Below are positions 39,812-45,401 of a stretch of DNA of 64,000 bases, piece by piece. Position 1 is the stretch's first letter. Each line of letters opens with the position of its first letter. The DNA comes from Azoarcus sp. CIB (GTDB lineage Bacteria > Pseudomonadota > Gammaproteobacteria > Burkholderiales > Rhodocyclaceae), in NCBI RefSeq assembly GCF_001190925.1, contig NZ_CP011072.1:1860001-1924000 (forward strand), read 5' to 3'. The position numbers were made by a program, and so were the translations under genes. Below the pieces are notes generated by a model. It ran no database searches. It worked only from the letters and a program-made list of their open reading frames with translations, and was not told the origin of the DNA.

Positions 39812-40594
39812 CTAGGTTGATTTAGTGGGTTCAGACACGCATTTCATGTCCACCATCTGACGCAGTACGGCCTCCTCGGCGAGTAGTGCATTCACCGCAA
39901 CAGGGTCGAATTGGCTGCCGGACATGTGGAGTATCTCCGCCTTCGCCGCATCAAATGTGAGCCCCTGACGGTACGGCCGGTCTGACGTCATGGCATCAAG
40001 GGTGTCGACAACGGCAAATAGCCTCGCACCGAAGGGAATATCCTCACCCCGCAGGCCACGCGGATACCCGCCGCCATCGAACCTTTCTTCATGACTGCGC
40101 ACGATATCGGCCGCCTCTTCCATGCCGGCCAGTCGGCCAACTAACCGATGGCCATCATCCGGATGCCGACGCATGATGGTCCATTCGTTTTCCGTGAGCG
40201 GCCCTACCTTCAATAAAACACCATCCGGCACTCCGATTTTGCCCAAGTCATGCAGAAGAGCGCCCCAGTATATCTGGGCCAATCGCTGTTCATCGTTAGG
40301 AAAAATGCGCTTAGCCAGGACAACCGTGTGGCACGCAACACGCCGGGAATGCAAGCCAGTCTCATGCTCACGCAGATCAAGAGCATCTGCGAGCGCTTCT
40401 GCAAACGCAGCGTTCAGTTCACCACAGCGTGAGCACCCGCGGGACAACTCTTCGAGAAAACAGCGCTCACAAGTCTGCTGGCTTGATTTCCACGGCGTAC
40501 GAGAAACGACACGGGTACCGCAGCAATGACACGTCCCTGCAAAGGTAGGTCGAAGCTCCAATGTGTGCCTCCCATGTAACGACGCACCCATCAC
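39812..40594 (-). CDS. HD-GYP phosphodiesterase with N-terminal zinc ribbons
   Basis: A 260-residue cytoplasmic enzyme, probably a c-di-GMP phosphodiesterase. The N-terminus has paired Cys (CHCC, CERC, CSRC between residues 22 and 57), likely a zinc-binding region. The HD-GYP domain shows REHETGLHSRRV, LLHDLGKIGVPD (HD at 115-116), HPDDGH, HEERFDGGGYP and DTLDAMTSDRPYR: all the metal ligands and the GYP motif are present. It overlaps the upstream gene by 4 bp (ATGA) and ends the copA-led operon. A Cys-rich sensor region fits a metal-sensing input, but this is inference. Confidence 0.85.
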   Translation of the reverse strand: MMGASLHGRHTLELRPTFAGTCHCCGTRVVSRTPWKSSQQTCERCFLEELSRGCSRCGELNAAFAEALADALDLREHETGLHSRRVACHTVVLAKRIFPNDEQRLAQIYWGALLHDLGKIGVPDGVLLKVGPLTENEWTIMRRHPDDGHRLVGRLAGMEEAADIVRSHEERFDGGGYPRGLRGEDIPFGARLFAVVDTLDAMTSDRPYRQGLTFDAAKAEILHMSGSQFDPVAVNALLAEEAVLRQMVDMKCVSEPTKST

Positions 40595-41244
40595 TCGGTT
40601 GCATCGGGCGGTTGCCGCCCCAGGACAGGGATGAATGCCGGCGTGCGTTCCCGGTACTGCACGTAGGCTTCGCCAAATTCAACGAGTACGTCACGTTCTT
40701 CTTGGTGCGCCAGGCGCGCGTACACGATAAGCAACACGGGAAATAGCGCCAACGTGATCAATGTGGGCCACTGCAACAGGAATCCAAACATCACGAGGAC
40801 GAAGGCAACATACTGAGGATGCCGAATTCTTGCATAGGGACCGGTGTCCGCCACGCGATGCTCACGCTGTGCGCGATAAAGCACCGGCCAAGCTTTTGAA
40901 AGCAACCAGAAACCGCCGACGATGAACGCCGTGCTAAGGAGATGAAACGGGCCAAAATGCGGGTTAGATCGCCAACCGAACATGACTTCGAGCAGGTGGC
41001 CCGAATCATGAGCGAGGAAATCAACACCCGGAAAGCGCGAGGATAGCCAACCGGACAGCACGTAGATTGTGAGCGGAAACCCGTACATCTCCGTGAACAA
41101 GGCGACGATGAAGGCGGAGTAAGCGCCGAGCGAACGCCAATCGCGCGTGCTGCGGGGCCTTGCGAAGCTGAACGCAAACGCGATGAAAAAGATTGAGTTG
41201 ATGATGACCAGCGACCATAGGCCGTAGGAAGGCGTGTCGGTCAT
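40591..41244 (-). CDS. ICMT/PEMT-family membrane methyltransferase
   Basis: A 217-residue membrane protein with five or six TM segments and the isoprenylcysteine-carboxyl-methyltransferase box: GPYARIRHPQYVAFVLVMFG, then LVEFGEAYVQYRERTPAFIP, which hold the SAM-binding residues. Such proteins near copper and mercury genes are common but their substrates are unknown. It overlaps both neighbours (HD-GYP and the DUF2933 gene) by 4 bp. Confidence 0.82.
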   Translation of the reverse strand: MTDTPSYGLWSLVIINSIFFIAFAFSFARPRSTRDWRSLGAYSAFIVALFTEMYGFPLTIYVLSGWLSSRFPGVDFLAHDSGHLLEVMFGWRSNPHFGPFHLLSTAFIVGGFWLLSKAWPVLYRAQREHRVADTGPYARIRHPQYVAFVLVMFGFLLQWPTLITLALFPVLLIVYARLAHQEERDVLVEFGEAYVQYRERTPAFIPVLGRQPPDATE

Positions 41245-41504
41245 TTCTCATCTCCTTCCGTTTTATTCTGTGTGTCCCCCTGATTGTGCCCACCATGCCC
41301 ACCGTGTCCGCCGTGCATGAAGATGTGCATCAACGGACAGGCCAACAGGAAAAGCCACGGCAAGATGCCGAGGAGATGAGCGCGGTGTTCAGTGAAGAGA
41401 AAAAACGCGGCCAGCGCGAGAAAGCCGAAGAATACCCATTTCACCCGTGAGTCAGCCCCCCCGCGTCTGTGGACCGGCTGTTCCCTATCATGTTGCTCTG
41501 ACAT
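41241..41504 (-). CDS. DUF2933 small membrane protein
   Basis: An 87-residue protein: N-terminal charged arm, two TM segments (WVFFGFLALAAFFLFTEH and LGILPWLFLLACPLMHIFMH) and a His/Gly tail (HGGHGGHGGHN). This is the DUF2933 pattern. Short membrane proteins with such tails usually sit in copper operons next to copA or methyltransferases. It overlaps the ICMT-like gene by 4 bp and starts 15 bp after the YtkA-like gene. Confidence 0.82.
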   Translation of the reverse strand: MSEQHDREQPVHRRGGADSRVKWVFFGFLALAAFFLFTEHRAHLLGILPWLFLLACPLMHIFMHGGHGGHGGHNQGDTQNKTEGDEK

Positions 41505-42828: not shown

Positions 42829-42971
42829 GGCAATCTCCGATAGCGAGGACAACGCTGATTTGGCTAGGGCGAGAATGCTTTTTACGGGACGAGCACGTCT
42901 CGGGACGTTGACCGCGTTACATGCGAGGACATCGTTTCCCTACCCCCTATTAAGCGTTCTATGTCAGCGCG

Positions 42972-45401
42972 TCAGAGTATTGTGGTGCGAAGTCTTAGTG
43001 CATTCCCGACCACGGAGGCCGAACTGAGACTCATCGCCAGCGCAGCGATGAGCGGCGACAACAGAAGACCCAGGAACGGGTATAGCACGCCAGCCGCGAT
43101 CGGCACGCCGAGCGCGTTATACAGGAACGCGAACGTCAGGTTCTGGTGCATGTTGCGCACCGTTGCTACGGACAGCGCGCGCGCGGTGGCGATGCCGCGC
43201 AGGTCGCCCTTGACGAGCGTAAGGTGCGCGCTGTTCATCGCGACGTCGGTGCCGGTGCCCATCGCGATGCCGACATTCGCGCGCGCGAGCGCGGGCGCAT
43301 CGTTGATGCCGTCGCCCGCCATCGCGACGATGCGGCCTTCGGCCTGCAGCTTCGCGACGAGGTCGTCCTTGTCCTTCGGCTTGACCTCGCCGTGCAACTC
43401 GTCGATGCCTAGCTGTCGGCCGATCGCGCGCGCGGTCGTGAGGCCGTCGCCGGTCGCCATGATGATGCGCAGGCCGGTCGCGCGCAGCCCTTCGAGCGCT
43501 TCGGCCGTCGACGCCTTGATTGGGTCGGAGACGGCGAGCAGTCCGGCGATCCTGCCCGCGACCGCGAGGAACATCACGCTTGCGCCTTCCTGCCGCAACG
43601 CCTCGGCCCGCGCCTCGAGCGGCCGCCAGTCGACGCCTTCGTCTTCCATCAGCGCGGTGTTGCCGAGTGCGACGGCCTGTCCGTCGATCGTGCCGCGCAC
43701 GCCGATGCCGGACGAGGATTCGAAGGTGCCTGCGGTGCTGAGGCCGAGAGCGCGCTTTTTCGCCTCGGCGACGATTGCATGCGCGAGCGGGTGTTCGCTG
43801 CCCTGGTCGAGGCTCGCGGCGACGCGCAGGACTTCGGCTTCGGTCCAGCCAGGCGCCGGGGCGAGGCCGTGGAACGCGGGTTTGCCTTCGGTCAGAGTGC
43901 CGGTCTTGTCGACGATCAGCGTATCGACTTGGCGCATCGATTCGATCGCGGCGGCATCGCGGAACAGCACGCCGTGGGTCGCGGCCTTGCCGGTCGCGAC
44001 CATCACCGACATCGGTGTCGCGAGCCCGAGCGCGCACGGGCAGGCGATGATCAGCACGGCGACCGCGTTGATGAGCCCGTACGCCCAACTCGGCTGCGGC
44101 CCGAAGAGGCCCCAGACGAACAGCGTCAGCAGCGCGATCGCGACGACGCCGACGACGAACCAGCCCGCGACGCGGTCGGCCATCCGCTGCATCGGCGCGC
44201 GCGAGCGCTGCGCCTGGGCGACCATCTGCACGATCTGCGACAGCACGGTCTGCGAGCCGATCTTCTCCGCGACCATGACGAGCGCGCCGCTGGCGTTGAG
44301 CGTCGCGCCGATCAGCTTGTCACCGGGCCGCTTCGTCACCGGGATCGGTTCGCCGGTCAGCATCGACTCGTCGACCGCGCTCGACCCTTCCTCGACAGCA
44401 CCGTCGACCGGTACCTTTTCGCCTGGACGCACGCGCAAGCGGTCGCCCGGATGGACGTGGGTCAGGGGGATGTCCTCCTCGCTGCCGTCTTCGCGGATCC
44501 GGCGCGCCGTCTTCGGCGCGAGCCCGAGCAGCGCCTTAATCGCCGCGCCGGTCTCCGAACGGGCCTTAAGTTCGAGGACCTGGCCGAGTAGCGTCAGCGA
44601 GATGATCACCGCGGCAGCTTCGAAATACACCGCGACGTGCTCTCCGATCCGGAACGACGGCGGAAACACGTCGGGTGCGACGGTTGCGATCACGCTATAG
44701 ACGTAAGCGGCGCCGGTTCCGAGGCCGATCAGGGTCCACATGTTCGGGCTGCGGTTGCGGATCGACTGCACGCCACGAACGAAGAACGGCCAGCCGGACC
44801 ACAGCACGACCGGCGTCGCGAGAGCCATTTCGACCCACGGCCGCGCCGGTCCGAGCAGCGGATCGAACATGCCGCCCGACATCGCGACCACAGTCACGAT
44901 GACTGTCAGCGGCAGCGTCCACCAGAAGCGGTGGCGAAATTCCGTCAGCTCCGGATTGTCGCCCTCGTCTTCGCCGGGAAGCACCGGTTCGAGCGTCATA
45001 CCGCATTTCGGGCATGTGCCCGGGCCCATTTGGCGGATTTCGGGGTGCATCGGGCAGGTGTATTCAGTGTCTGCCGCGACGTCCGGCGTCGCTCTAACGT
45101 GCATTGCCGGTGCCGGTTTCAGATAACGCTCCGGCTCCACCTTGAATTTGTCGTGACACTTTGCGCTGCAGAAGTGATAGACGTGACCATTGTGGCTCGC
45201 ATGATGTGGCGAATCCGGTTTGACGGTCATGCCGCACACTGGATCCTTGGTCGCTACGTCATCGCGCGGATTATCGGAATCGTAATGATCGTGCACGACC
45301 AAGGCTTCTGGGGGGGGATGAACGTGTCGCAAGGCGGCATTCTCCCTATTGGGGCACGGCGCGTCCGACGCGGTGGGCACGCACAGCGCGTAGCCGGCCA
45401 T
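42972..45401 (-). CDS. copA: CopA-type Cu(I) P1B ATPase with YHS and CPxH domains
   Basis: An 809-residue Cu(I)-exporting ATPase. The N-terminus has a YHS domain ([23 protein letters not shown]), then a heavy-metal-binding domain ([22 protein letters not shown]), then the pump: VMFLA actuator region, [16 protein letters not shown] (CPC about 454-456), [21 protein letters not shown] and the CopA TM signature [15 protein letters not shown]. The outermost frame opens with TTG; the ATG at 45401 is the first ATG, and a GTG near 45296 is another candidate. A TTAC-N6-GTAA box is about 210 bp upstream. It heads a six-gene minus-strand operon. Confidence 0.9.

Follow-up and report, generated by a model that had tools for sequence, protein, structure and literature searches.

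A copper-linked family of HD-GYP proteins with an altered metal-ligand set in Azoarcus sp. CIB and related bacteria

Described metal-resistance systems with related parts

The nearest described parallel to the locus considered here is Mrp/Urf2 of the Tn21/Tn501 mer operon in Cupriavidus metallidurans, a metal-induced EAL phosphodiesterase that lowers cyclic di-GMP (c-di-GMP) (PMC6629876; cited, like PMC8478169, PMC13090378 and PMC4159591 below, from part of its text). On the copper side, merR-copA-cupredoxin-DUF2933-ICMT clusters occur in Alteromonas and other bacteria, and lie on genomic islands in several species (PMC8478169). The present study concerns a stretch of 64,000 nucleotides of Azoarcus sp. 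CIB (NZ_CP011072.1, positions 1,860,001 to 1,924,000), called the window throughout and used for all coordinates. On its minus strand, from 45401 to 39812, lie six genes that encode, in order, the copper ATPase CopA, a class I methyltransferase, a small secreted protein, a DUF2933 protein, an ICMT-like protein and an HD-GYP protein, and all six genes of the preliminary description were found there. Our best reading takes the last of them for an HD-GYP phosphodiesterase, or else a c-di-GMP receptor, that is tied to copper modules.

The locus shares with Mrp/Urf2 a c-di-GMP phosphodiesterase (predicted here) within a metal-resistance operon, and Mrp/Urf2 likewise has a small additional domain, DUF3330, with a CxxC...CxxxC pattern in its relatives. 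It differs in that Mrp/Urf2 is an EAL rather than an HD-GYP protein and is associated with mercury and cadmium rather than copper, and hhalign detected no profile similarity between DUF3330 and the cysteine finger of the HD-GYP protein (probability 0.3%). With the published copper clusters, as far as the consulted part of PMC8478169 describes them, the window has in common copA, DUF2933 and an ICMT-family gene in one copper cluster; those clusters have a cupredoxin-domain protein in place of the window's small secreted protein, and a MerR gene, whereas the window operon is marked by a palindrome. DUF2933-ICMT pairs also recur on plasmids (so annotated in most of 40 of the 184 matching records).

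The term c-di-GMP has no occurrence in PMC8478169, and the main text of a survey of beta-proteobacterial copper proteins (PMC6769254) contains no c-di-GMP, phosphohydrolase, methyltransferase or HD domain terms. Among the papers listed in searches of the open-licence literature, none was found, by title or opening of the abstract, to describe a copper-linked HD-GYP family; such an absence is weak evidence. It had been proposed that no described system has this make-up; because the copA-DUF2933-ICMT module is already published (PMC8478169, in part), it is the HD-GYP part that looks undescribed. Three of the operon genes belong to a described copper set, and what looks new is a copper-linked HD-GYP family that spans several bacterial families. 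This would be a second, apparently independent metal-resistance module with a c-di-GMP protein of its own, HD-GYP with copper after EAL with mercury and cadmium, and it would allow ordinary environmental strains to be used for testing whether islands of metal-defence genes reprogram lifestyle.

Recurrence of the copper linkage and of the palindrome

Relatives of the HD-GYP protein were collected from 61 genomes (the window's own and 60 relatives), from a scan of GTDB species genomes and from 399 genomes of the same order, 19 of which, the window's own included, held a match at E<=1e-65. This yielded 59 clade loci (L039-L079, L118 and L158-L174), six of which (L040, L058, L059, L118, L161 and L171) were dropped as identical to another locus over the last 200 HD-GYP residues; the 53 counted loci do not include the window's own copy and do include the truncated L056 and the degraded L057. 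Clade membership was assigned by identity rank, and the tree against which this similarity-derived label was tested covers 124 of 130 rows, was built by a quick method and places controls on long branches; the rows absent from it, L056 and five of the controls, lack the HDxGK anchor. Numbers of carriers are lower bounds, as the GTDB scan gives "at least" values and the order and class scans scored the best candidates of each genome. The controls comprised 57 lower-ranked HD-GYP loci of the GTDB scan and 20 other HD-GYP genes, 13 in the window's genome and seven in related genomes. Copper genes were recognised by BLAST to the window's CopA, DUF2933, ICMT and secreted proteins, CopK, the RND pump at 13830-16985 and its adaptor, and other copper genes are missed because recognition relied on these window proteins only.

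In the clade, 44 of 53 loci have a copper gene within 10 kb, against 1/57 and 0/20 in the two control sets. Linkage to copA alone shows the same pattern (35/53 against 1/57 and 0/20), as does the full copper gene list when restricted to loci with at least 5 kb on both sides (33/39 against 0/34 and 0/20). One of copA, DUF2933 or ICMT is present within 10 kb in 37 of the 53, and in 35 a copper gene stands on the same strand within 1.5 kb. The association between HD-GYP and copper genes therefore far exceeds chance (44/53 against 1/77 pooled controls, Fisher p ~2e-24), a p value that overstates the independent evidence because clade loci are related by descent; gene orders in the clade nevertheless vary widely despite the common ancestry. 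That every clade member is copper-linked was also considered, and was rejected on account of nine loci in 53.

The gene order, whose recurrence the preliminary description had put forward as a check, proved not to be unique to the strain, so that its condition for refutation does not apply; four further genomes carry the order, all of one genus: the exact six-gene order is found in the window and in L039, L040, L041 and L043. The idea of the six-gene order as an old unit was rejected on this ground. Subsets and permutations of the set extend to other families, with the HD-GYP gene immediately before copA (for example, L063, L068, L075, L160, L163 and L165), after ICMT-CopA (L052, L054 and L061), next to an RND gene (L065 and L070) or, in L074, first of all six genes. 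Carriers among the matches listed include Aromatoleum species, Dechloromonas agitata, Ferriphaselus, Nitrosomonas communis, and metagenome-assembled genomes of Thiobacillus and Gallionellaceae. A class-wide sample of 369 genomes added five matches, four of which have both the HEE motif and the four-Cys finger described below; two of these four (L189 and L190) have copA at a distance of no more than 10 kb. The remaining match, L191, reads HHE, lacks the finger and looks like an outgroup. In two of these loci from outside the order, L188 (8339-9493, scanned) and L190 (8209-9384, by likeness), an FAD/NAD-binding-type oxidoreductase gene lies directly 3' of the HD-GYP gene.

The palindrome, TTAC-N5-TGTAA, is presumably a box of the type used by CopR/CusR-type regulators; a literature search on it returned nothing usable. 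It occurs at six places in the genome, a single contig of 5.26 Mb, all of them copper or efflux loci, and the reversed pattern, used as a control, occurs at none in the whole genome. One copy (45611-45624) lies 210 nt upstream of copA, and another (39772-39785, minus strand) just past the HD-GYP stop codon and upstream of a gene for a short secreted peptide. The third precedes by 90 nt an outer-membrane efflux gene that adjoins an RND pump, the fourth precedes a CusRS-like pair, 2.3 kb outside the window, the fifth stands between a CusR-like gene and cusF, and the sixth lies ~0.5 kb beyond a copK oriented away from DUF2933-ICMT-copA genes. Among the compared loci, 16 of 53 in the clade and 1 of 77 controls carry it. 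The sixth copy also lies ~160 nt upstream of an EAL-domain gene of the window's genome (L261:6766-7802; PF00563 E=1.3e-14), whose product may be degenerate because EAF replaces EAL (by eye); perhaps this is another c-di-GMP protein, in degenerate form, that is linked to a copper locus.

Metal centre, cysteine sites and proposed role

The window's HD-GYP protein matches the HD_5 profile and the HD-GYP fold, has no obvious membrane or secretion segment, and departs from the HHExxDGxGYP signature in reading HEExxDGxGYP. HEE, in which a glutamate replaces a metal-ligand histidine of HD-GYP enzymes, is found in 51 of 53 clade loci and HQE in the remaining 2/53; the 77 control loci have HHE (57) or HQE (19), with no match in one and HEE in none. 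Its closest sequence match in the PDB is V-cGAP3, a phosphodiesterase for 3'3'-cyclic GMP-AMP (cGAMP; E=6.6e-32), just ahead of PmGH (3.7e-31), the HD-GYP c-di-GMP phosphodiesterase of Persephonella marina. In 27 aligned members, which had been selected for carrying the Cys motif, E67, H71, H104, D105, H133, H157 and D186, equivalent to seven of the eight PmGH metal ligands, are invariant, as is Lys108. Compared with PmGH (PDB 4mcw) and the HD-GYP family, the window's protein has Glu for His277 and Glu at the position of Asp183, carries the four-Cys finger as its sole extra domain, has a C-terminal Lys-Cys and stands in a copper-gene context. The clade-wide change from His to Glu offers a natural test of how much alteration an HD-GYP metal centre tolerates.

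The zinc-ribbon-like cysteines reported earlier were borne out in part. The N-terminal finger, spaced CxxC-x(15-18)-CxxC in most members, is present in 40 of 53 (39 by pattern and L165, whose finger ends in CVL, by reading), and in none of the 77 controls by pattern search. In the window's protein it spans residues 11-34, and C11, C14, C31, E32, C34 and L36 are invariant in the same 27 members; a third Cys pair (GCSRCG) is not conserved. Modelled alone, the finger shows the treble-clef pattern, in which a beta-hairpin leads into a helix and the second Cys pair stands where the helix begins. It resembles the LIM, TRASH and PF12156 profiles at sub-threshold level only, with weak fold matches mainly to PHD fingers, and these likenesses would fit a metal-binding finger while establishing no family.

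A Lys-Cys pair close to the C-terminus is shared by 46 of 53 members (45 by pattern and L172 by reading), and is likewise absent from the 77 controls by pattern search. Copper linkage was found in 42/46 loci with Lys-Cys against 1/6 without it (p ~0.0003, kinship ignored), L072 being excluded because its frame ends early. Five members (L073, L078, L079, L167 and L168) have no Lys-Cys, share a CEHC(L/F)L finger and have no copper gene nearby, and L066 is of the same type yet copper-linked; perhaps these proteins form a sister group with a different role.

We propose, with a probability of about 55%, that the protein is a copper-induced HD-GYP phosphodiesterase and the signalling part of a copper-resistance module. 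Computation showed the gene set, the recurrence of the copper linkage, the glutamate specific to the clade, the HD-GYP fold, the Cys motifs and the presence of the box at copper loci. Copper would activate a two-component system of the CusRS/CopRS type, which likely binds the predicted box upstream of copA; the operon would then be transcribed, with the HD-GYP gene as its final cistron. The HD-GYP protein would hydrolyse c-di-GMP or, less likely, only bind it, so that the level falls during copper export, and cells with lower c-di-GMP would leave the sessile, matrix-producing state. The finger and the C-terminal Cys might tune this activity through a bound thiophilic metal, either Zn or Cu(I). 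Phosphodiesterase activity is somewhat more likely than not, in keeping with the c-di-GMP turnover suggested earlier, for which seven of eight PmGH ligands speak and the eighth, now Glu, does not. Direct metal sensing by the Cys sites is put forward only tentatively, as is the shift away from sessile life. A bolder version strikes us as doubtful: an undescribed HD-GYP family would form the signalling arm of copper-resistance modules, cytosolic copper or zinc would act directly on c-di-GMP hydrolysis through the rebuilt metal centre and the Cys sites, and a single operon would thus couple metal export with the choice between sessile and motile life, as a counterpart to the EAL enzyme of mer operons. 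The copper linkage suggests that copper defence may carry a lifestyle switch of its own.

Several observations weigh against this proposal. Nine of the 53 clade loci have no copper gene, three of which (L064, L078 and L079) carry less than 2 kb on one side, and two of the four HEE members outside the order (L187 and L188) have no copA nearby; the contig of L187 ends 585 bp on, and L188 has a YHS-domain protein ~3 kb off. The finger is missing from 13 of 53 members. Four of these (L056, L057, L064 and L072) are truncated, stop at a contig end or keep three Cys; the other nine (L051, L052, L054, L060, L062, L063, L068, L173 and L174) are whole. The finger is dispensable for the copper link because most fingerless members are copper-linked. 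The palindrome is rather distant from copA and restricted to fewer than a third of clade loci. An alanine change of H277 abolished the activity of PmGH (PMC4159591), and its equivalent is Glu in 51/53 and Gln in 2/53 clade members; in addition, Glu65 aligns with PmGH D183. With such an altered ligand set, HD-GYP activity may be lost or changed.

This loss, clade-wide, of a ligand essential in PmGH is what favours a c-di-GMP receptor, its metal centre disabled or retuned by the change from His to Glu, that would control a partner such as CopA or a membrane protein of the operon through c-di-GMP binding. A precedent is DvhD (PDB 9rbz), an HD-GYP receptor of solved structure whose ligands are altered and which shows no hydrolysis; according to the consulted part of its description, however, DvhD carries a PAS domain in addition and retains neither the HD pair nor either His of the double-His motif (PMC13090378), whereas in the window's protein the HD pair is intact and the 27 aligned members keep seven of eight ligands and Lys108. 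Since Glu is able to act as a metal ligand, and the invariance of these residues in the aligned members points to retained metal chemistry, we regard a pure receptor as unlikely. The same unusual ligand set, together with a best PDB match to V-cGAP3 narrowly ahead of PmGH, could instead indicate a phosphodiesterase for another substrate (cGAMP or linear dinucleotides) or a phosphohydrolase that is gated by metal and whose role does not involve c-di-GMP, readings to which we assign little probability. It is just as improbable, in our view, that the HD-GYP gene is a passenger, co-transferred in metal-resistance islands and with no function in the copper response: the window is dense in metal-resistance genes (mostly by eye) and its G+C content is lower at 36-42 kb, and the next three copies in closeness share 98-99% identity and come from the same genus, but the copper linkage holds across families with differing gene orders, often with the HD-GYP gene adjoining copA on the same strand, the residue set is specific to the clade, and other HD-GYP genes of the same and related genomes are copper-linked in 0/20 cases.

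Architecture of the probable operon and its surroundings

The six genes likely form one operon, as judged from their arrangement. The gene copA (42972-45401, minus strand as for all six; ATG at 45401, stop at 42972) encodes a P1B copper-exporting ATPase, an identity upheld by TIGR01511 (571.1 bits against a cut-off of 397), so that a curated Cu-ATPase subfamily model is exceeded; its translation has the CPC motif (ACPCALG) and N-terminal YHS (PF04945 E=1e-13) and HMBD (PF19335 E=2e-11) metal-binding domains. The S-adenosylmethionine-dependent class I methyltransferase (41986-42828, ATG at 42828; PF13649 E=1.6e-26) has a hydrophobic N-terminal stretch, judged by eye, and falls below the cut-off of each of the 25 best-scoring NCBIfam models.

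For the small secreted His-containing protein (41519-41989, signal sequence by eye), the earlier label "YtkA-like" found weak backing: the window's protein has no match to PF13115 at E<=1, and three of 11 family members match (best E=0.0036); PF10634 matches seven of the 11 (best E=0.0024), and Pfam does not assign the protein to the cupredoxins. The next gene (41241-41504) was confirmed as encoding a DUF2933 protein (PF11666 E=2e-25), a small membrane protein with a His/Gly-rich tail. The integral membrane protein that follows (40591-41244) is ICMT/PEMT-like in matching the broad Pfam families PF04140 (E=5e-7) and PF04191 (E=3e-6), and lies far under the equivalog cut-off for isoprenylcysteine methyltransferase (NF040696, 50.6 against 160 bits). 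Of the joint unit proposed earlier, the link between copper and HD-GYP genes is supported by its recurrence and by the palindrome upstream of copA; the membrane methylation part is unsupported.

The HD-GYP gene itself (39812-40561; PF13487 E=1e-32) encodes 249 aa from TTG 40561. This start is preferred to GTG 40594 because GGAGG lies 6 nt upstream, a TTG start is also seen in L042-L045, and L041 has no in-frame start codon upstream of its own TTG. The genes for CopA and the methyltransferase are 143 nt apart, those for the secreted and DUF2933 proteins 14 nt, and those for the ICMT-like and HD-GYP proteins 29 nt. The assertion that most junctions are 4-bp overlaps is incorrect, as only two of five are (methyltransferase/secreted protein and DUF2933/ICMT) and a third relied on GTG 40594. 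Terminator-like sites over the operon number 10 against 6.0 expected, and the scan placed none in the intergenic gaps on the operon strand. Downstream, the second palindrome copy precedes a gene for a short His-rich secreted peptide of 81 aa (39415-39660, minus strand), which is kept with the operon in L039-L041 and matches no Pfam family above the cut-off.

The surrounding DNA is rich in metal-resistance genes (7723-18592, 22480-31704 and 51297-63575), among them several sets of RND efflux genes (PF00873 in the one set scanned) and a pair of sensor kinase and response regulator (kinase scanned); genes for a ZntA-like ATPase and for MerR-like regulators were recognised by eye. A CopK gene (PF11525 E=8e-33) and a second CopK-like open reading frame occupy 36390-37706, with a CzcE-domain protein (PF16986 E=1e-24) encoded between them, and G+C content drops to 51-57% at 36-42 kb. 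Ankyrin-repeat open reading frames and a small-frame cassette are repeated and partly degraded at 32635-33219 and 35018-35470, and at 31701-32405 and 34455-35006, respectively; such cassettes are repeated in L039-L041 and L057 as well. Two genes at 46743-48868, one encoding a Rieske domain and the other a CxxCH motif (CASCH), diverge from copA, and a Rieske-like gene is also found near the HD-GYP gene in L044, L052, L075, L076 and L187.

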